Origin: Anabaena sp. UHCC 0204
GTDB taxonomy: Bacteria > Cyanobacteriota > Cyanobacteriia > Cyanobacteriales > Nostocaceae
DNA length: 64,000 bases
Assembly (NCBI RefSeq): GCF_009711975.1
Contig: NZ_VIKW01000002.1
Coordinates: 1 to 64,000, forward strand
Direction of reading: 5' to 3'
Part shown: one piece after another, positions 1 to 23,158 of the stretch
Numbering within the stretch: the stretch's first letter is position 1
How the letters are laid out: each line of letters begins with the position of its first letter
Notes under the pieces: model-generated
Told to the model about the DNA's origin: nothing
The model's database searches: none
What the model saw: only the letters and a program-made list of their open reading frames with translations
Translations under genes and position numbers: made by a program

Positions 1-517
1 TCACTAGTTTTTCGTCTGCTGTCACTGCTACTGCTTGTACCCAATGATTATGACCTGAGAGGGTGCGGAGTAACCTTCCTCCTGCTTGGGTGAGACTGGG
101 GGTGAGGGGACGCAACCAAGGGTGAGGGTGAGTTTTTTGTGCTTGGGTTAATAGGGTTTGCATTGCTGGGGTGTTGATGGTTTGTAACCTTCCCCATAAT
201 TGACTTACTAATTGTTGTTTATCCTGGGTGACAATATGTGCAGACAGTCGCAAAGCACTTTGAATATATTTTAAGGTTTTGGTTTGGTCTGGGTGGGTTG
301 CGGTTTGGGTATCATCTAATAAATCATAATCTTCAATTAATGCTTGGATACCAAAGTCAGGATGATTGATTTTGTTAGATATGAATTGATAATCTGTGAG
401 GGTTTGGAAATATTTGGTTAAATTATCGGAGTTTACCAAATTATAAGGATATCTACCCAAATAAGCTTTTTGGGAATAGGATTTTTTTGATGATGATTTT
501 TTGGTAATTGTTGACAT
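1..517 (-). CDS. WD40-repeat protein, N-terminal part (runs off the window)
   Basis: This gene is not closed in the window: it starts at the ATG complement at 515-517 and continues past base 1. The visible 172 residues begin MSTITKKSSSKKSYSQKAYL, followed by a helical linker containing the motif FGIQALIEDYDLLDD. That linker is typical of the segment preceding the propeller in cyanobacterial NTPase-WD40 proteins. At the edge the first WD40 blade begins (LLRTLSGHNHWVQAVAVTADE). WD40 propellers act as protein-binding or ligand-sensing scaffolds. The gene lies directly downstream of the NACHT-type NTPase at 734-2362 on the same strand. The pair looks like a single NACHT-WD40 protein that exists here as two genes. 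The ligand and exact function are unknown; the family call is solid. Confidence 0.85.
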   Translation of the reverse strand, partial: MSTITKKSSSKKSYSQKAYLGRYPYNLVNSDNLTKYFQTLTDYQFISNKINHPDFGIQALIEDYDLLDDTQTATHPDQTKTLKYIQSALRLSAHIVTQDKQQLVSQLWGRLQTINTPAMQTLLTQAQKTHPHPWLRPLTPSLTQAGGRLLRTLSGHNHWVQAVAVTADEKLV

Positions 518-9084: not shown

Positions 9085-10788
9085 TCATTCCTGAGAGTTA
9101 TATCGGCGAGAAGTATAAACCCAAACCTTATTCTCACCGTGCTGGATTTGTCGCGTGTGGGAAGAACCGATAATAATCACAGTTCGCATATCTGCTAATG
9201 TCGGTTCTAACTCTTCTAGGGTAATAACCTTGACTTGTTCTCCCTTTCTCCCTAAATTTCGTCCTAGAATGACTGGAGTATGGGGTTTGCGGTGTTCTAG
9301 TAAAATCTTTTTTGCAGCAGCTAGTTGCCAAGTGCGTTCTTTTGATACAGGATTATAGAGAGCGATCGCTAAATCACTGGTAGCCGCAGCAGTAATCCGT
9401 TGAGCGATGATTTCCCAAGGCTTCAAAATGTCCGATAGGGAAATCACACAGAAATCATGCCCTAAAGGCGCACCAATAGTGGCTGCGGCGGCTTGCATGG
9501 CGGAAATACCAGGGGCAACTTGAATATCAATTGTTTGCCATTCTGGTTTATGATATTGCTCTAATACCTCAAAAACCGCCGCCGCCATTGCGTAAATACC
9601 AGGGTCGCCTGAAGATACAACTGCTACATATTTGCCAGTTGCGGCTAACTCTAGCGCCTGATATGCCCTTTCAGCTTCTACTCGATTATCTGATTCATGG
9701 ACGCGCTTACCATCGGCGAGAGAACCAATTAAATTAATGTATGTTTTATAACCTACTAAATCCGTTGCTGCTGCCAAAATTTCCTTTACTTGCGGTGACA
9801 TCCATTTTGACGCACCTGGACCCGTACCAATAATAGCTAATTTTCCCTGGGCTTGTCCTCTAGTCGCAGGGTTAATAATTTGAGTGGAAATGGCAACGGC
9901 AATAGAGGAAGATGGAGATGAGATAATTTGAGCATCTGCACCTGTAACCGCTAAGATCAATTCTGTTAATTGATTTTCTGGAAAGAAGCGGGTAGGAACT
10001 CCTAAAGCCTTAGCTATAGCTTGAAGTTGGGAATTATTAGCTAAGTGAAGAGGTGCAAATATTCCCGCTACGGCTTTAGCTGCTAAATTAGATTCTGCGA
10101 GGATTTGCTGAATTTGGGTAATTGTGTTTGGTTCTGGGTGAGTGAGGGAAATTGCTATTTTCGCAGGATGATAAACTAAACAATTAGAGTCATAATTACC
10201 TAAATTCTCGGTAATTTGAATAGTTAACTCGCCATTTTCATCAATAGGTAAATTACTCTCACTCAACCAAGGCGCTATTCCCTCTAACTTGACTTTTCTC
10301 CCAGCTAATAAATCAGCAATGAATTTTTTCCCATGTTCTGGGTTAGCTAAATGATATCCAGGCGGAGGAGATAACAAAGCGGTATGAAAGCGGATATCTC
10401 CTGTGGTGGTAATTGCTGGTTTTGTATTTAGGGCTTCGCCAATATGACGCGCTAAATCATTTACGCCACTTAATCCACCCAAAAGCGGTACAACAGCACT
10501 ACCATCTTCAGCTACAGCTAAAATGGGCGGTTCTTGCCCTTTATCCATTAGCAAAGGTGCAATTGTTCTAATGAGAATACCAGCCGCACAAATCCCAATT
10601 ATTGGTGTCCCAGCGGCGAATAATTCCCGCAAGGTTTCGCCAAAGTTTATAAAGCTAATATCAACATCATCAGTCCGATTAACTAAACCATATAGTTTCG
10701 CACCTGGTAAGCAATTGGTGATTTTTCGCCCCACGATAACGCTATTTTGACTCAATACTACAACCGCAGGGGCTAATTTTGTGTTCAT
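9085..10788 (-). CDS. cobJ: CbiG-CobJ fusion: cobalt-precorrin-5A hydrolase / precorrin-3B C17-methyltransferase
   Basis: This 567-residue bifunctional enzyme acts in cobalamin ring contraction. Residues 1-300 are CbiG-like (N-terminal ICAAGILIRTIAPLL and GGLSGVNDLA; C-terminal GVPTRFFP). Residues about 315-567 are the SAM-dependent CobJ/CbiH methyltransferase, with the glycine-rich start KLAIIGTGPGASKWM and the motifs VVSSGDPGIYAMA and EVAPGISA-type VAPGISAMQAAAA. The fused arrangement is known in cyanobacteria. It is on the same strand as cobG-cobH-cobI but separated from cobI by about 2.6 kb of foreign-looking sequence, so it may have its own promoter; no second riboswitch is seen upstream. 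Confidence 0.92.
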   Translation of the reverse strand: MNTKLAPAVVVLSQNSVIVGRKITNCLPGAKLYGLVNRTDDVDISFINFGETLRELFAAGTPIIGICAAGILIRTIAPLLMDKGQEPPILAVAEDGSAVVPLLGGLSGVNDLARHIGEALNTKPAITTTGDIRFHTALLSPPPGYHLANPEHGKKFIADLLAGRKVKLEGIAPWLSESNLPIDENGELTIQITENLGNYDSNCLVYHPAKIAISLTHPEPNTITQIQQILAESNLAAKAVAGIFAPLHLANNSQLQAIAKALGVPTRFFPENQLTELILAVTGADAQIISSPSSSIAVAISTQIINPATRGQAQGKLAIIGTGPGASKWMSPQVKEILAAATDLVGYKTYINLIGSLADGKRVHESDNRVEAERAYQALELAATGKYVAVVSSGDPGIYAMAAAVFEVLEQYHKPEWQTIDIQVAPGISAMQAAAATIGAPLGHDFCVISLSDILKPWEIIAQRITAAATSDLAIALYNPVSKERTWQLAAAKKILLEHRKPHTPVILGRNLGRKGEQVKVITLEELEPTLADMRTVIIIGSSHTRQIQHGENKVWVYTSRRYNSQE

Positions 10789-16548: not shown

Positions 16549-17466
16549 TTACAACTTCTGCAACAACTCCTGAGTTAACTGCATAAATGCTTTAGAACCG
16601 GCTGTATTTGGACTCAGTAAAGAAACAGGCATAAAACTATCAACAGCTTTAGCTACATTAACATCAACTGGTATTTGCGCTTTACAGATTTTATCTACTC
16701 CAAAATCCTCGACAACTCGGTGCATTACCTGTTTATAATATCTGCCATTCAGTAAATTTGCGCTGGACATACTAAAGACAATTCCCAACATTTTAATATC
16801 TATCTTAGCTTCGTGTTCATGACTATCTTTTAATTGGGCAATGCGTCTTTCTAAAAGTTGAATACCTACCACAGATAACGGTTCTGGTTTGGCTGGGAGA
16901 ATGTAGAAATCGCTACTAGCTAAAGCACTACGAGTCATTAAATTATAGCCAGGAGCGCAATCTAAAAGAATAAAATCATATTCATCCTTTACAGGGTTTA
17001 AAATATCTCTAATTAAGACTCTTTCAAAGCGATTCCAAATAGTTTCAAAATCCTGTTCTCCCAAAGCTACGGATTGATTATGTAGCATTTCCGAAACCAC
17101 AAATTCATCATATAAGTCTATATCTCCTGGTAATAAATTTAATCCGGGAAGATTACAAACTTGAGGTTGAATAATATCATGAATCGTCAATTTTGCCCCA
17201 GGTTCAGGGTTAATAATTTCATCTATCAAATATCTAAATGTCTTTCTTTGTTTGCGACGTTTGGCAAAATCCACAGGTGACATTAAACTCAGTGTGGCAC
17301 TAATTTGACTATCTAAATCTAAAACAAGTACCTTTTTACCGTGATTTTTTGCCAAACAGGTAGCTATATTCACAGTGAGGGTGGTTTTACCGACTCCACC
17401 TTTCATGTTTGCGGTTGCAATTATATATCCCATTTTGAGTTCCTCTGCTGACGCTTTCCCAATCAT
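16549..17466 (-). CDS. ParA/MinD-family ATPase
   Basis: This 305-residue protein has a deviant Walker A motif KGGVGKTT near residue 22, a Walker A' region VLVLDLDSQISATLS and a Walker B region FILLDCAPGYNLMTRSA, as in ParA/Soj partition ATPases. A better start may be the internal ATG giving MGYIIATANMKGG. No partner ParB gene or centromere-like repeat is adjacent. It is the last gene of a same-strand series starting at 23158, 87 bp after the nuclease-translocase gene, so it may belong with that system rather than being a chromosome partition gene. ParA-type ATPases position DNA or protein complexes; the cargo here is unknown. Confidence 0.88.
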   Translation of the reverse strand: MIGKASAEELKMGYIIATANMKGGVGKTTLTVNIATCLAKNHGKKVLVLDLDSQISATLSLMSPVDFAKRRKQRKTFRYLIDEIINPEPGAKLTIHDIIQPQVCNLPGLNLLPGDIDLYDEFVVSEMLHNQSVALGEQDFETIWNRFERVLIRDILNPVKDEYDFILLDCAPGYNLMTRSALASSDFYILPAKPEPLSVVGIQLLERRIAQLKDSHEHEAKIDIKMLGIVFSMSSANLLNGRYYKQVMHRVVEDFGVDKICKAQIPVDVNVAKAVDSFMPVSLLSPNTAGSKAFMQLTQELLQKL

Positions 17467-17553
17467 GTAGCGTACATATTATCTAATAAATTTTAACTTT
17501 GATTAATTTAACCTTTTGGGGGATGTGGAAAAGTATCAAACGATTTTAACCAC

Positions 17554-20187
17554 CTAAACTAACGGTAGCTGAATAGTTTGTGCTAATAAGCTTTGAAGAC
17601 GTTGTAGTTGCGAACCAACTTGGTAAACTAAATCACCTTTGCCTAATAAATAAGCTGCTGTTGTTTCTTTTCCACCCAGAATAATGCATGAATCTGCTTG
17701 GCTGGAGGTACGCAGGGCGACTCGTCCAGGTAAATTAGCACGGATAATTGGGGTGACAATGCTGGCTTCTGGACGTTGTGTGGAAATAATCAGATGAATG
17801 CCAGCGGCTCTTGCCATTGCGCCTAAACGTTTGATACTTTGTTCTAATACGGTGCGAATTTCTTTTTCTGCCATAAAATCGGCATATTCATCAAATATAC
17901 AGACTATACGCGGTAAAGCTTGGGAAGAATGTTGATTATAGGTAGTTAAATCTGCACATTTAGCTTTTTCAAATTTTTGATAGCGAGATTCCATTTCTGC
18001 AACTAGTTCTTGCATCAATTCTACGGCGCGATCGCTATCTTTGACAACTGGTGAATATAACCATGACATTTGCTCAAATTCGGGAAATGTTACCCGCTTG
18101 GGGTCAACTAAGGCAATTTTTAAATGTTGGGGAGAATGACAATAGAGTAAACTGAGAAGGAGCGATCGCAAAAACTCACTTTTTCCGCTTCCTGTTGTTC
18201 CCCCAACCAAAAAATGACAAGTATTCGGATCTGATAAATCAGCCTCTAACAACTTACCATCAATACTCACCCCAATGGCAATTTTTACGGGTGCTGTTGG
18301 TGGTAAAAATTGTTTTTGAATATAATCTTCAAATTTGGCAATTTGCCTATCTGTACGTGGTAAATCAATACTCACATAACCAGCTTGGGGAGCAATTAAA
18401 GGCGGATGTTCTAACCCCAACTGTACTTGTAAATCAGCCGAAAATTTCAGCAGTGAATTTACTCTTATACCCAGATTTGGTTTAAGTTTCACTCGGATAA
18501 ATGCTGGACTTACAGCAGCACCTTGATATTCAACACCAACACCAAAAGATTGCAAAGTATTAACCAAAGCTTCCCCTATTTCATCAGCATTAATAGATGT
18601 ATCTTCCTGACTTTTAAAAGTATCTGAAAAACCTCTCTCCAAACCTCTCTCCTGCAAGGAGAGAGGCTTTGAATTCTCCCCCTTCCCTGGTAGGGAAGGG
18701 GGTTGGGGGGTTAGGTTTCGTGTTGGATTTTCTTCAACACTAAAAAAAGTCTGACACTTTTGTTGTTGCGGGCAAATTTCACATAAATGAGGTTGAGTTG
18801 TAGCTGGTGGTGGGTTAGAATTGGGAGATTCCCAACTCAACCATTCTTGCATTTGTAATAATTTGTAGGGAATTAATTGATGAACCGTATTTTCTAGCTG
18901 TTCCCAAGAATATTTGTACTCTTTAAACTCTGGTAAAACACAATAAACAGCAGAATCAACAGGTGCTTTTTTCTTCTTCCATAACATATAACTATAGAGA
19001 GAAACTTGAGCTAATTGTGCTGAAGGATCTACAGATTGATAGGTTTTAAACTCCACCATACAAAGGCGTTTGAGTTCAAAGTTAAAAACTAAACAATCAA
19101 ATTCACCTCTTATCAGTTGCTTTGTACCATCTGGTAAATTAAAGTAATATTCTAAACTGCGTTCTTCACTAATAAAAGTATTCTGAATAACTGTTTCTGC
19201 ACTACAATAATGGCGATTGATTACTAACAATTCAGTAAAGTTTTTAATTAATCCTTGTAATCCTTGCCAAACTTGTAATAATCCAGGGGCTTTACTATAA
19301 TCTTGACTAATAGTATCTTGTAAATAAGGAAAGAATTTAATTTGATAGAATAATTGTTGAATTTTTGATGTTAGTTCATCTACATTTAATTGTGTTGCAG
19401 ATGGATTCAATAAAGTTTTAAATCTGGGTTCAATTAGCAGTAAATTAATAAAATCATCTGCTAGTTGGTGAAAGACATTACCAATACCCGTAATGGCATC
19501 TTTAGGAAAGAATATTGCTTTATAATTAAAATTATGATTTAGATAAAATAGTCGAGGACATTCAAAAGCTAATCTAACTTTAGTCGGAGTTAAAGAAGAG
19601 TTTTCAGATTTATGATTTACCATATTAAATATATTACTGATAGCATCAGGATTGGATATTTCCAGTAAGCGACGATGAACAGCAGCTAAATAAACTGTAT
19701 CCATTGCTGCATAGTTTAGCTGTTTTTGAGTCAGAGGACGTTTTCCCCAGTCGCTTGTTCCTTCTTCTGCATCTACATTAGAAAAGTAGCAGAGTTCAGT
19801 AGCTAAAGTTTTTAGTTTTAAGTTGGTAGTTTGTAAAACTTTACGTTTAATTTTTTGGGCTAATTTTAAAGTACAGGTAACATTTTGGGCTTGAGTTTTG
19901 CCCAGATATTTTAAATCAAAACCCGCACTATGAAATACTTTTTCAATTTGCGGATTAACCATAATTTGGTTAATGAAATATACAGCCAAATCAGGTTTAT
20001 CTAAAACATCAAAAATGTAAGCAGATTCACCAGTTAAATCTGTATAATCAGCCAATACCTGAATTAGTGCTAATTTTGGTTTATCGGTATACCAATCAGC
20101 AATTTCCGTATCTATCCATAGGGTTTTAGATAGGGATAGTTGGGAAATTTGCTGGTAAATTTCAGAAGCTTCGCTCAGGTAGTGCAT
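17554..20187 (-). CDS. Fusion: DEDD exonuclease, Cas4-like Fe-S nuclease and FtsK-type DNA translocase
   Basis: This 877-residue protein joins three DNA-acting domains. Residues 1-180 are an RNase D-like DEDDy 3'-5' exonuclease (Asp26/Glu28 in WIDTEI, Asp91 in AGFDLKYL, Tyr159 and Asp163 in LNYAAMD). Residues 200-480 are a RecB/Cas4-like PD-(D/E)XK nuclease (His240; GEFD with Asp364; VEFKT with Glu379 and Lys381; QVSLY). Four cysteines are placed for a 4Fe-4S cluster (Cys210, then CEICPQQQKC: 469, 472, 478). Residues 535-877 are an FtsK/SpoIIIE alpha-beta motor (Walker A GGTTGSGKS 662-670; Walker B VCIFDEYAD) with neither membrane domain nor gamma domain. All catalytic residues are present. 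A palindromic repeat is inserted in frame at residues about 491-520, in the linker. Processive DNA degradation is inferred. Confidence 0.88.
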   Translation of the reverse strand: MHYLSEASEIYQQISQLSLSKTLWIDTEIADWYTDKPKLALIQVLADYTDLTGESAYIFDVLDKPDLAVYFINQIMVNPQIEKVFHSAGFDLKYLGKTQAQNVTCTLKLAQKIKRKVLQTTNLKLKTLATELCYFSNVDAEEGTSDWGKRPLTQKQLNYAAMDTVYLAAVHRRLLEISNPDAISNIFNMVNHKSENSSLTPTKVRLAFECPRLFYLNHNFNYKAIFFPKDAITGIGNVFHQLADDFINLLLIEPRFKTLLNPSATQLNVDELTSKIQQLFYQIKFFPYLQDTISQDYSKAPGLLQVWQGLQGLIKNFTELLVINRHYCSAETVIQNTFISEERSLEYYFNLPDGTKQLIRGEFDCLVFNFELKRLCMVEFKTYQSVDPSAQLAQVSLYSYMLWKKKKAPVDSAVYCVLPEFKEYKYSWEQLENTVHQLIPYKLLQMQEWLSWESPNSNPPPATTQPHLCEICPQQQKCQTFFSVEENPTRNLTPQPPSLPGKGENSKPLSLQERGLERGFSDTFKSQEDTSINADEIGEALVNTLQSFGVGVEYQGAAVSPAFIRVKLKPNLGIRVNSLLKFSADLQVQLGLEHPPLIAPQAGYVSIDLPRTDRQIAKFEDYIQKQFLPPTAPVKIAIGVSIDGKLLEADLSDPNTCHFLVGGTTGSGKSEFLRSLLLSLLYCHSPQHLKIALVDPKRVTFPEFEQMSWLYSPVVKDSDRAVELMQELVAEMESRYQKFEKAKCADLTTYNQHSSQALPRIVCIFDEYADFMAEKEIRTVLEQSIKRLGAMARAAGIHLIISTQRPEASIVTPIIRANLPGRVALRTSSQADSCIILGGKETTAAYLLGKGDLVYQVGSQLQRLQSLLAQTIQLPLV
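18628..18717. repeat. Palindromic repeat inserted in frame in the nuclease-translocase gene
   Basis: Two adjacent palindromes, CCTCTCTCC..GGAGAGAGG (about 18645-18666) and CCCCCTTCCC..GGGAAGGGGG (about 18679-18702), are read as TPQPPSLPGKGENSKPLSLQ. It falls exactly in the linker between the Cas4-like and FtsK domains, leaving both intact. Confidence 0.75.
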
Positions 20188-20253
20188 TCGTGTACTTTTG
20201 GATTTATGAAAAAAACTAGCAGATTGGGCAGCATATTTGATTGTACTTAATTA

Positions 20254-22260
20254 TTAATTTGGTATCCAACATACTGACTGTTTTTCTGGTTTCTCATTGG
20301 GGGGAATAATTTTAATTTTATTCTCCTGACATAATTCTTCCAGCAGAAGCTCCACGTTTAAATCTTTCACAAAATTAAATCTCTCTTCTGCTTTATCCGT
20401 TAATAATTTTCGTCCCAATATTTGATTAGTTTGAACTAAATTAAACAAGAATTCTTTGACCATCTTTTTATACTTTTCATCGTCAGGACCTGGATTTTTA
20501 GTAAAAAATCCTAACTCTTGTAATAAATAGCATTCTCGCATAATTTCAGATGCGCGAATTAAACTTTCTAATTCCTCTAATTTGATGATTTTTGTATCAA
20601 CTACCAACTCACCCGCACAAGCTGCATTTACTAGATTATGATAAGTTACCAAGTAATGAACAGAATTTAAATCTGGTTGAATTCTACGATGATCGGAATT
20701 TGTGAATATTTCAGTAAATATTTTGTTGCCCACTAAATCAGTATTGCCAACATTTTGCGCTCTAATTAAGTAGAGTGTATTACACAATTTCCGTTGTACT
20801 ACTTTATGGCAAGCCTTCATTATATAACAGAATGTAGTCATATTTGCTTCTTCTGTCCAAGTGATTCCGATTTTTTCGGTTTGATCAGGAACTTGATAGC
20901 TGAATGAATACTCAGCATAAGTAGAGCTAGGTAATAGTTTTGGTTGAATATTTCTCACTTGCAAAGCTGATAAAGTTTCTTTCAACATTCTCACGAGTTC
21001 TACTGAAGAGCATTGACTAATGTGAGTAATTCTTTTCTCAACTTTCTGAAATTCATACAACCATAATAATTTAAATGCTGCAACTAAGTCTATCTTGTCT
21101 ATTCCTCCTTTATATTTTTGAATTAATTCCTTACCTAGTTGCAATACTTCACGAGGCAAAACTTTGCCTCCAGGAAATTCTTCTTTGAGAGAGTGTTCAG
21201 TTAATGGGAAAATATCAGAACTTGGCTGAGATTTTACTTGAGTATGTAGTGGATAAAGCCGAGTTGCCCACAATGATTTGGCTTGTTCCAATGTGATGCG
21301 TTTAAGAGAAATTTTTGTATTAACTCTGTCTAAATCAGCATCTGGAATTAGCTTTTTATTTTGATTCCATGTACTATTAATAATACTGATAATTACCAAC
21401 ATTCCTTGCCATTGTTCATTATGAATAGTAGAATTAGCACTGAATAAAGTCGGTAAGTCAATAGAGTTATTAGCTAACTTAGCAATATTGTCTAGTTGAT
21501 CAAAACACCAAACAATTGGTTTAGATTTAGCCGAAATTTTACTAAAATTTGCTAATATTTTTCTAGCTGCGTCTTCAGTATCAATTGAACGTCCAACTCC
21601 CAGATTTTTTAAACTATCTTGATCAAGGTTGTCACCTTTTAACCATTCACAGGCTAAGTAGTGTAATTTAGGGTTAGTTAATTGATATAAAACTCCAAAG
21701 AACTCATGAGCATTGTATATCCCTAGCAGTCCTAATTTATTTTTCAAAATATCAATAAACTGCTGTCTTTCTCTAAGGTAAGAGCCATTGTCATTAACTC
21801 CAGTCCTCTTTATTTTCTCAATTAAATTTTTTTCTTCAGCTTCTAACCCATTTGAAATACTAGAAAAACAGCTTTTTAGCCATAGTAATAACTGTGAATC
21901 TTTTTGTCCATCAGGAGATTTAACGAGGCTATCAACTGTATATCTTAAAATGTGTCGCCAGATATATTGACTTTCGACAAACGGTTCAATATAAACAAAA
22001 AATGCCTGTGAATTCAATATTTTTTTGAGCCGTCCTAAGAAATAAGTTTTTCCAACTCCAGCATCACCAGCAAGAATAAGAGTACGAGGAATGCGATCAT
22101 TAGATACTTGTTTTAAAACTTTTTCTATCTCTACTAACGCCTCTTGATGGATAGATTCTACTGTGAGTGCTTTTTCTTGTGTCTCCTTCCAAAAGTTAGA
22201 GGACGCAAAATTATCGAATGGATTGATAGATTGCTTAATAATTTCTTCGATAAATGCCAT
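20254..22260 (-). CDS. Large AAA+ / ORC-like ATPase of the nuclease-translocase cassette
   Basis: This 668-residue cytosolic protein has an N-terminal P-loop ATPase: Walker A GDAGVGKT (residues 65-72) and Walker B PIVWCFDQLD (248-257). A region near 285-300 (GMLVIISIINSTWN) fits sensor 1. The layout resembles ORC/Cdc6- or KAP-type ATPases that act on DNA or as signalling switches. Residues about 430-668 show no family I recognise and may hold a target-binding domain; the end (VKDLNVELLLEELCQENKIK) looks like a winged helix. It lies 66 bp upstream of the FtsK-fusion gene and 43 bp downstream of the 284-aa gene, all on one strand, so co-transcription is likely. The role is inferred to be loading or licensing of the translocase-nuclease. 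Confidence 0.75.
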   Translation of the reverse strand: MAFIEEIIKQSINPFDNFASSNFWKETQEKALTVESIHQEALVEIEKVLKQVSNDRIPRTLILAGDAGVGKTYFLGRLKKILNSQAFFVYIEPFVESQYIWRHILRYTVDSLVKSPDGQKDSQLLLWLKSCFSSISNGLEAEEKNLIEKIKRTGVNDNGSYLRERQQFIDILKNKLGLLGIYNAHEFFGVLYQLTNPKLHYLACEWLKGDNLDQDSLKNLGVGRSIDTEDAARKILANFSKISAKSKPIVWCFDQLDNIAKLANNSIDLPTLFSANSTIHNEQWQGMLVIISIINSTWNQNKKLIPDADLDRVNTKISLKRITLEQAKSLWATRLYPLHTQVKSQPSSDIFPLTEHSLKEEFPGGKVLPREVLQLGKELIQKYKGGIDKIDLVAAFKLLWLYEFQKVEKRITHISQCSSVELVRMLKETLSALQVRNIQPKLLPSSTYAEYSFSYQVPDQTEKIGITWTEEANMTTFCYIMKACHKVVQRKLCNTLYLIRAQNVGNTDLVGNKIFTEIFTNSDHRRIQPDLNSVHYLVTYHNLVNAACAGELVVDTKIIKLEELESLIRASEIMRECYLLQELGFFTKNPGPDDEKYKKMVKEFLFNLVQTNQILGRKLLTDKAEERFNFVKDLNVELLLEELCQENKIKIIPPNEKPEKQSVCWIPN

Positions 22261-22303
22261 AAATTTGCACCAAAAATAAGAGCAGTAATGATTGAGGATC
22301 TTT

Positions 22304-23158
22304 TTAGTTTAAAGTAATAAAAAACACTAAACTACCTTGACGTTGGAATATTCCTGCGTCTAGCTGTTCAGATGTAAATTTGTCAGGTTCAGCCAAGGTA
22401 CTCAACTCAATGTGGTTGTTAACTTGCAACCGATACAAAGCCTGATCTAATTCTTCCCTTGACATTGGTGGTTGTAACTTTTGCCGTAAATGGAAAATGG
22501 GTAAATAATTCTCTGTACCCAGTTCTTGGTCTAATTTCTCGATAAGTTGTAAAATTTCTTCATCACTGGGATTGATGATAGTTTCTACACTTGATTGTTT
22601 ATTGGTAGGTAGTGGAACAGAAACTTGTTCTGGCTTAACCCGTAAATTCTTCCGTAAAAAGCGCAGATAATTACCCAGCAATTCCAAACTAATAACAGGG
22701 TTAGCGCCTTTATTGGGAATATATTCATCCCGCAAAAACTCAATCCCTCTTTCAGTCAGCCAAACCTCAGCTTTAATTCTTTGAATTTTGATTTCTGCTG
22801 AAATTAAACCCCGTTCATTCAAGCTTTTCAATATCTCGGCTCGTTCCGCAGCTTTCAGAGAAGTAATTTCACTGGGGGCGATTTTAGCAGTAGCTTTACT
22901 GAGTTTATCCAACACCTTACGTTCTTTATCAGTGATGGGTAACTCGGCTGGGTCTAGTTTCAACAGAGCCTGACCAGGAGGTAAAATTTTAACTGTGGCA
23001 ATCTCACGCGAATAGTCTACCAGTTCGCGATCGCCTAAGTCTCGACAAATTTTGTTTTTCTCACTTTTAAAACCATCAAAAGTGCTGGAACTCAAGCCAG
23101 TGCGATAATTGGGACATCCCAACAGCTTTAAGATAAACTTTAACTCTTTCGTTTCCAT
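22304..23158 (-). CDS. Winged-helix-like protein, first gene of the nuclease-translocase cassette
   Basis: This 284-residue cytosolic protein was not assigned to a named family. Two segments look like winged-helix modules: residues about 75-150 (LPITDKERKVLDKLSKATAK through LTERGIEFLRDEY) and the C-terminal 80 residues (LPIFHLRQKLQPPMSREELD through FFITLN). The middle is charged and helical. It begins the minus-strand series followed closely by the AAA+ ATPase (43 bp). A perfect 10-bp inverted repeat lies about 70 bp upstream of its start. It could be a DNA-binding specificity subunit or an autoregulator of the cassette (inference). Confidence 0.7.
   Translation of the reverse strand: METKELKFILKLLGCPNYRTGLSSSTFDGFKSEKNKICRDLGDRELVDYSREIATVKILPPGQALLKLDPAELPITDKERKVLDKLSKATAKIAPSEITSLKAAERAEILKSLNERGLISAEIKIQRIKAEVWLTERGIEFLRDEYIPNKGANPVISLELLGNYLRFLRKNLRVKPEQVSVPLPTNKQSSVETIINPSDEEILQLIEKLDQELGTENYLPIFHLRQKLQPPMSREELDQALYRLQVNNHIELSTLAEPDKFTSEQLDAGIFQRQGSLVFFITLN

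Follow-up and report, generated by a model that had tools for sequence, protein, structure and literature searches.

A three-gene winged-helix, ORC-like AAA+ and DEDD-Cas4-FtsK operon of Anabaena, a probable cyanobacterial branch of HerA/FtsK capture systems

The question raised by this locus was which kind of system is encoded when a winged-helix (WH) protein, an ORC/Cdc6-like AAA+ ATPase and a single chain uniting a DEDD exonuclease, a Cas4-type nuclease and an FtsK motor stand in one operon. The locus was found in Anabaena sp. UHCC 0204 (NCBI RefSeq assembly GCF_009711975.1), in the first 64,000 nucleotides of contig NZ_VIKW01000002.1, and this whole stretch is called the window. Four minus-strand open reading frames (ORFs; Table 1) were separated by gaps of 43, 66 and 87 bp, in agreement with the coordinates and spacing of a first-pass annotation, which had taken the four genes, a ParA gene included, for a module matching no defence or partition system. 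The analysis showed that the system consists of three genes (WH, ORC-like AAA+ and DEDD-Cas4-FtsK fusion), not four, and that the three are a cyanobacterial variant of a kind already proposed. They probably represent a cyanobacterial branch of ORC/Cdc6-coupled HerA/FtsK capture, a counter-invader DNA-degrading machine.

The kind was predicted by Rakesh, Aravind and Krishnan in 2024 (PMC10853773) as 'HerA/FtsK capture' counter-invader systems. In the sections of that paper compared here, the capture systems contain an Orc/Cdc6 ATPase with an inactive restriction endonuclease (REase) inserted before the C-terminal winged helix, a nuclease, and an FtsK protein with FtsK-alpha; the active REase belongs to two families, a subset carries a gene of 2-4 winged helices related to DndG/SspB, and a 3'-5' exonuclease is fused to FtsK in some. 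Part of PMC12839542 likewise describes HerA/FtsK, ORC/Cdc6, winged helices and nucleases as recurrently together. The composition of the Anabaena operon matched the kind described in these sections of PMC10853773 in most features, which supports the capture reading. Shared were an Orc/Cdc6-family AAA+ protein (of the 13 Protein Data Bank (PDB) matches of its model at E<=0.001, 11 were ORC, OCCM or Cdc6 chains and two were p97 and DRG1 chains), an FtsK motor with FtsK-alpha and a fused 3'-5' exonuclease (the DEDD domain was present in 65 of 67 operons and fell below the 60-bit cut in 2). Less certain likenesses were a gene of apparent winged helices, which may be related to DndG/SspB, and a putative REase-like insert recognised by the order of its elements. 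The nuclease was of the PDDEXK_1/Cas4 type with conserved active-site residues, and may belong to one of the two families of PMC10853773. In contrast to the capture systems as those sections give them, a single chain here joins a four-cysteine Cas4-type nuclease to both the exonuclease and FtsK, the AAA+ protein lacks the Walker B glutamate, and there is an exchange cassette, of which the sections compared make no mention. The words 'cyanobacteria' and 'Cas4' were absent from the main text of PMC10853773, whose figures or supplements may draw the exact architecture. No experimental test of the ORC-FtsK branch or of the fusion was found by title among open-licence papers. In the window, the PADLOC scan covered the four genes, and SspH matched only residues 508-859 of the fusion, its FtsK part (5e-68), while SspF matched the AAA+ protein at E 0.01. 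With the kind already in PMC10853773 and SspH matching the FtsK part, the first-pass view that no known system is matched was given up.

The domains of the 877-residue fusion were DNA_pol_A_exo1 (residues 7-175, E 3e-26), PDDEXK_1 (199-479), FtsK_alpha (526-610; PF17854, 1e-7) and FtsK_SpoIIIE (625-806; PF01580, 2e-39). The domain scan matched neither a membrane nor a gamma domain, and it agreed with the earlier description of a DEDD, Cas4-like and FtsK fusion without a membrane anchor or gamma domain. A total of 21 fusions were aligned, the other 20 being 53-90% identical to that of the window. Invariant throughout were D26, E28, D91, Y159 and D163 (the DEDDy residues), H240, D364, K381 and the cysteines C210, C469, C472 and C478 (Cas4 type), and the core residues of the FtsK Walker A and Walker B motifs; E379 was present in at least 90% of the fusions. 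The earlier statement that catalytic residues are intact throughout was thus borne out for the nucleases and FtsK, and failed for the AAA+ protein, in which the Walker B glutamate is replaced. The DEDD domain may have been borrowed from an RNase D-like gene, because a separate RNase D-like protein of the same genome was 51% identical to it. The linker between the Cas4 and FtsK parts (NPTRNLTPQPPSLPGKGE...) was a dispersed genomic repeat translated in frame, and a similar peptide was also seen at G000:C14 and G000:C8, in L039 and in other genomes (G-numbers are sampled genomes, G000 being that of the window, and L-numbers are fetched loci). Two fusions were built differently: that at L080:10508-13873 had a protein-kinase-like stretch between DEDD and Cas4, seen by eye in the sequence, and that at L091:9466-12702 had an extra N-terminal DUF4145.

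The AAA+ model reached a predicted local distance difference test (pLDDT) score of 89 and a predicted template modelling (pTM) score of 0.86. Its PDB matches, with low TM-scores over the whole model, are consistent with the first-pass term 'ORC-like'. Walker A lay at residues 65-72, and K71 was kept in all 135 homologues. Walker B read FDQLD in the window (253-257), with Q255 replacing the glutamate; its aspartate was kept in 133 of the 135, and the residue following it was mostly Q (78) or N (54), with H in 2 homologues and E in a single one. In AAA+ enzymes such a change of the Walker B glutamate permits ATP binding and impairs hydrolysis, so that, as judged from its residues, the protein probably works as a clamp or switch rather than as a motor. 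The insert between core and C-terminal winged helix showed an alpha-beta-beta-beta-alpha-beta order at residues 419-499 (model secondary structure), and no conserved D...(D/E)xK or PD-(D/E)xK signature was found in it over 135 aligned rows. Residues 392-560 are probably an inactive REase, to judge from the model topology and PMC10853773. The AlphaFold2 model of the WH protein (pLDDT 83.9, pTM 0.51) showed tandem winged helices by eye, with only weak PDB matches and none at E<=0.001.

Comparison of relatives showed that one part of the operon varies against the rest. Within the genus, pairwise protein identity was 79-97% for the fusion (13 genomes), 91-100% for ParA (14), 66-97% for WH (13) and 39-97% for AAA+ (15), and the AAA+ proteins of the genus formed four classes, 39-54% alike. 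The pair G003 and G015 was 96% identical in the fusion and 97% in ParA, and 54% in AAA+. The DNA of this pair was 89-96% identical in early WH, fell through 78% to 58-70% from late WH across most of AAA+, and rose again to 91-100% over roughly the final 200 bases of AAA+ and all along the fusion. For the trees (quick or FastTree, LG models, long branches flagged), 67 of 79 operons, the window included, were kept after dropping copies identical over a 400-residue stretch. The genus formed one clade on the fusion tree of these 67 operons (Shimodaira-Hasegawa-like approximate likelihood ratio test 97) and was split across the AAA+ tree, where forcing it into one clade cost 655 log-likelihood units (approximately unbiased (AU) test, p 8e-5); the genus label was taxonomic, and the identity table had been seen before the AU test. 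In Brasilonema, Calothrix and Cylindrospermum, AAA+ was split as in the genus, and the difference between the Brasilonema loci L150 and L188 lay mainly in AAA+ residues 1-390.

The borders of the variable part were located with class changes and with a class-free test. A total of 51 operons (49 with WH) were assigned to AAA+ class I (33), II (7) or III (11), and 16 classless operons were left out. The class changed 13 times on the fusion tree. With the 49 operons, it changed 15 times on the tree of WH residues 1-150 (shuffled mean 14.9) and 3 times on that of WH residues 196-284 (shuffled 14.9). By segment (FastTree), the changes were 13-15 for WH 1-200, 3 for WH 196-284 and 11-14 throughout the fusion. 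For AAA+ they were 2-3 for residues 1-390, 6-9 for 391-625 and 12 for 618-668; these segments were scored on classes derived from AAA+ itself, which is circular, and they were not used as proof. The class-free test was a partial Mantel test, in which the partial rank correlation with AAA+ core distance was taken after removing fusion distance (500 permutations). Over 65 operons it gave 0.37 for the C-terminal part of WH (WH-C; 0 of 500 permutations as high), -0.05 for the N-terminal part (WH-N; 384 of 500), 0.37 for AAA+ 391-610 (0 of 500) and 0.27 for AAA+ 611-668 (1 of 500). In the genus (12 operons), the values were 0.78 (1 of 500) for WH-C, 0.28 (40 of 500) for WH-N and 0.45 (15 of 500) for AAA+ 611-668. 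Chance co-variation of WH-C with AAA+ was checked with the shuffles and the partial Mantel test; WH-C passed both and WH-N failed both.

The exchange block thus consists of the last winged helix of WH and the AAA+ core, and it is the species relationships that both the N-terminus of WH and the fusion track. Its left edge is sharp, near WH residue 196, and its right edge is diffuse, from AAA+ residue 390 to the end of the gene. The signal of the AAA+ C-terminal winged helix was mixed, with 12 class changes for 618-668, yet a distance that follows the AAA+ core. The pattern can come from replacement between strains or from the sorting of old tandem copies, and either origin yields a variable part that faces a constant effector. 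In the first-pass annotation, WH had been the recognition subunit and AAA+ the loader; the variable part proved instead to be the AAA+ core with only the C-terminal winged helix of WH. This distribution of sequence variation suggests that WH-C and the AAA+ core may form an exchangeable recognition (or trigger-sensing) cassette, with the WH N-terminus and the fusion as its constant partners.

A working scheme for capture would run as follows. The ORC-like AAA+ protein, which would be held ATP-bound because the catalytic glutamate is gone, would clamp particular DNA together with WH. When triggered, it would pass the DNA to the FtsK motor of the fusion, which would reel it in, and the Cas4-type Fe-S nuclease and the DEDDy exonuclease would cut and trim the reeled DNA. 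The exchanged part would recognise either the target DNA or an invader protein. We infer the defence role, every one of these activities, the DNA target and the self/non-self rule. A bolder idea, held only tentatively, is that ORC/Cdc6-type AAA+ proteins have become swappable, hydrolysis-impaired target-recognition modules, so that exchange of WH-C and the ORC core would re-aim a constant FtsK-Cas4-DEDD shredder. This would be a specificity-switching DNA immunity with a logic like that of HsdS exchange: in type I restriction, the recognition part HsdS is exchanged and the motor and nuclease stay constant. The likeness to HsdS is an analogy only, and no homology is claimed.

The distribution of the genes was examined with a threshold of E<=1e-100 for the fusion and the ParA orthologue, and the counts include the genome of the window and, for the fusion, some fragments. 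The fusion was found in 34 of 60 genomes, and 14 of the 16 genus members had it. Sampling across the phylum gave 40 carriers among 386 genomes, all 40 in the order of the window. Homologues of WH were found in 40 of the 60 genomes at E<=0.001, weak ones counted. Of the 82 fetched copies that could be judged, 78 had the AAA+ gene immediately upstream of the fusion, a figure that includes duplicates and is biased, many copies having been fetched by AAA+ itself. All of the best 79 AAA+ loci in named genomes (80 kept of 214) had cyanobacterial titles. Broken or partial copies were also seen: G029 carried a decayed copy with stops (a pseudogene), G016 carried fragments, WH-AAA was separated from the fusion in G016 and G028, and leftovers of WH stood in G037, G049 and G050. 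Linkage of the genes and patchiness among close relatives had been named in the first-pass annotation as tests, with patchiness as a sign of defence; WH, AAA+ and the fusion were linked, and the fusion was patchy. The cassette seems to have been inherited vertically over long periods, to have been lost often and to have moved at times, the vertical bulk being read from a fusion tree that mostly follows taxonomy.

ParA, proposed earlier as the fourth member, was rejected as a subunit of the module. Its orthologue was found well beyond the carriers of the fusion, in 56 of the 60 genomes. Of the 59 operons in which at least 2 kb could be read downstream of the fusion, 27 had it there on the same strand, no more than 1 kb away. 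It adjoined the cassette in the 13 genus members in which the whole fusion was seen (the window and 12 more), and it often stood by ileS. Because most linked orthologues are 294 residues long, ParA probably starts 11 codons later than called. The operon lay between a divergent GT4 glycosyltransferase gene (window 23433) and ParA (window 17466), as in several relatives. In many relatives this site held either the cassette or a pair consisting of an HSDR_N-ParA fusion and a ParB-like gene. By gene rows, such a pair stood within about 5 kb of ParA in 14 of the 60 genomes, and the fusion was present in 0 of these 14 versus 34 of the 46 others (Fisher 6e-7, kinship uncorrected); 4 of the 60 lacked such a ParA and gave no site to judge. 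Exceptions to this exclusion came from named genomes: L149 and L152 had the fusion with a shortened HSDR_N-ParA, L187 and L217 had it with weaker full-length HSDR_N-ParA matches, L194 had it with a ParB-like gene, and L159 and L165 held both operon kinds. In L049 (G013), a lone class IV AAA+ gene was seen beside an HSDR_N-ParA/ParB-like pair.

Several observations count against a counter-invader role. The chromosomal site is common to many relatives, and the fusion tree agrees for the most part with taxonomy. The three operon genes include none for modification or immunity, and no defence gene was found among the six window neighbours scanned with Pfam, which were cobalamin, TPR-trypsin, nitrite/sulfite reductase, GT4, YbjN and Rieske proteins. 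No AAA+ relative was found among viral contigs, where 6 pattern matches were all unrelated. Sorting of tandem paralogues could also yield the exchange pattern, and L202 has two AAA+ lineages.

The most likely rival is chromosome maintenance, in which the ORC-like AAA+ protein and the FtsK motor with its nucleases would act beside ParA on intermediates of replication and segregation in a polyploid chromosome, to resolve or repair them. The adjacency of ParA in the 13 genus members and the 27 of 59 judged operons, the mostly vertical fusion tree and the shared chromosomal site would suit it, as would the finding that the fusion gave the only FtsK_SpoIIIE (PF01580) match in the 99.99% complete genome of the window. 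However, the fusion was missing in 26 of the 60 genomes, 24 of which kept ParA; a pseudogene in G029 and a plasmid copy also exist; and lineages differ by exchange of the AAA+ core and WH-C, unlike what a housekeeping subunit would show. We regard chromosome maintenance as unlikely. A simple replacement of the housekeeping FtsK was likewise weakened by the 26 genomes without the fusion, the FtsK family search having covered the genome of the window.

A less likely rival still is that the operon is the restriction partner of phosphorothioate (PT; Dnd) modification, sparing PT-marked self DNA and attacking unmarked DNA as SspFGH does. SspFGH of Vibrio damages unmarked (non-PT) DNA according to part of PMC8092258, and in the sources as compared it has the same outline, namely a Walker A protein, a second gene and an FtsK-ended protein; the SspH match to the FtsK part fits this. 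SspFGH is, however, tied to SspBCD phosphorothioation in those sources, the SspH profiles run to 1561 and 1766 positions and have FtsK as their last part, and SspF matched the AAA+ protein only at the E of 0.01 given above. DndFGH, in the compared sections of PMC10853773, also joins a winged-helix protein, a P-loop protein and HerA/FtsK with a nuclease, but DndF is there a P-loop kinase, not ORC-like. The DptH/DndH family (TIGR03237) was found in 0 of 60 genomes, which says little since the controls were also silent. DndC was found in 38 of the 40 fusion genomes, but 93 of the 105 genomes sampled in the order had it, which makes it common there in any case, and its association with the fusion, tested within the order, was not significant (Fisher p 0.13). 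Above the cut-off, DndC occurred in 55 of the 60 genomes and in 94 of the 386 phylum genomes, all but one of these in the same order. Moreover, G028 and G197 carry the fusion without DndC, and DndC lay on another contig than the cassette. In the genome of the window, L226 (G000:C1:32000-51000) had DndC at 9091-10740 with a DndD-like ATPase beside it by eye, on another contig than the window. From the MADS system, mad8 matched the FtsK part of the fusion (3.3e-28), and the other MADS profiles gave no match among the four proteins.

That the operon belongs to a mobile element or serves plasmid stability, and not host defence, is very improbable: a plasmid copy exists and ParA and ParB-like neighbours recur, but the chromosomal site is shared in many genomes, only 1 plasmid record among 72,556 had the AAA+ gene, and the three proteins include no integrase and no relaxase. 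The plasmid copy was on the conjugative plasmid pPSE7367.01 of Pseudanabaena sp. PCC 7367, which carried WH, AAA+ and a fusion without DEDD; the cassette (L110:6298-10435) adjoined an SNF2-type helicase and a SWIM zinc-finger protein. Three FtsK plasmid matches (Burkholderia, Microvirga and Halobaculum) had other gene contexts, one of them adjoining dndC and dndD. Among phage records, 186 matched the fusion and none covered 80% of it; the 15 matches listed fell on the FtsK end, in some cases together with the linker or the end of the Cas4 part.

Related operon types were also seen. A second type consisted of WH followed by two AAA+ genes (about 21 loci by gene-row reading). Its first and second AAA+ proteins formed two separate clades, and at the Walker B position all 24 first proteins had Q and all 22 second ones had N. 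An opposite-strand ParB-like gene and HSDR_N-ParA lay next door in L151, L154, L155, L158, L159, L165 and L167; at some other loci the sequence ended before the neighbours. Distant cousins were seen at L096:1628-5845 and 12 more loci (L057, L058, L092-L095, L097, L098, L100-L102, L105). By gene-row reading, 11 of these 13 had a small WH-cluster gene, an AAA+ gene and a c6-family protein in a row; the one c6-family protein scanned had DUF1802 and a borderline Mrr_cat (20.6 bits versus a cut-off of 21). The AAA+ Walker B glutamate was present in 4 of the 13, and the motif was not found in 5. At L099:7414-9936, an 840-residue protein joined a related AAA+ to an RNase_T (DEDD-type) exonuclease at its N-terminus.

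Table 1 Features of the operon and its ParA neighbour in the window
Feature	Position	Strand	Basis
WH gene, winged-helix protein, 284 residues	22304..23158	-	ORF and AlphaFold2 model
WH C-terminal segment, residues 196-284, co-exchanged with AAA+ core	22304..22573	-	Tree changes, partial rank correlation
AAA+ gene, ORC/Cdc6-like, 668 residues	20254..22260	-	ORF, model, PDB matches
AAA+ core, residues 1-390, exchanged part	21091..22260	-	Alignment, segment trees
Alpha/beta insert, AAA+ residues 392-560, between core and C-terminal winged helix	20581..21087	-	Model secondary structure, conserved columns
AAA+ C-terminal winged helix, residues about 593-668, edge of exchange unit	20257..20484	-	Model
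Fusion gene, 877 residues: DEDDy exonuclease, Cas4-type Fe-S nuclease, FtsK-alpha, FtsK motor	17554..20187	-	ORF, Pfam domains, alignment
DEDDy 3'-5' exonuclease domain, fusion residues 1-178	19654..20187	-	Domain match, alignment
Cas4-type PD-(D/E)XK nuclease domain, fusion residues 199-479, four invariant cysteines	18751..19593	-	Domain match, alignment
Cas4-FtsK linker, fusion residues 489-523, dispersed genomic repeat in frame	18619..18723	-	Similar peptides elsewhere
FtsK-alpha (residues 526-610) and FtsK motor (625-866) of fusion	17590..18612	-	Domain matches
ParA neighbour, not judged a system member; likely start 17433	16549..17466	-	Orthologue distribution

The capture reading locates a predicted FtsK-driven defence class in cyanobacteria and says which part of it should carry specificity. 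The suggested cassette borders are at about residue 196 in WH and after about residue 390 in AAA+, and with them the trigger of 'capture' systems becomes a question that can be addressed by cassette exchange. If the reading is true, replication-initiator-like ATPases would serve as recognition cassettes.

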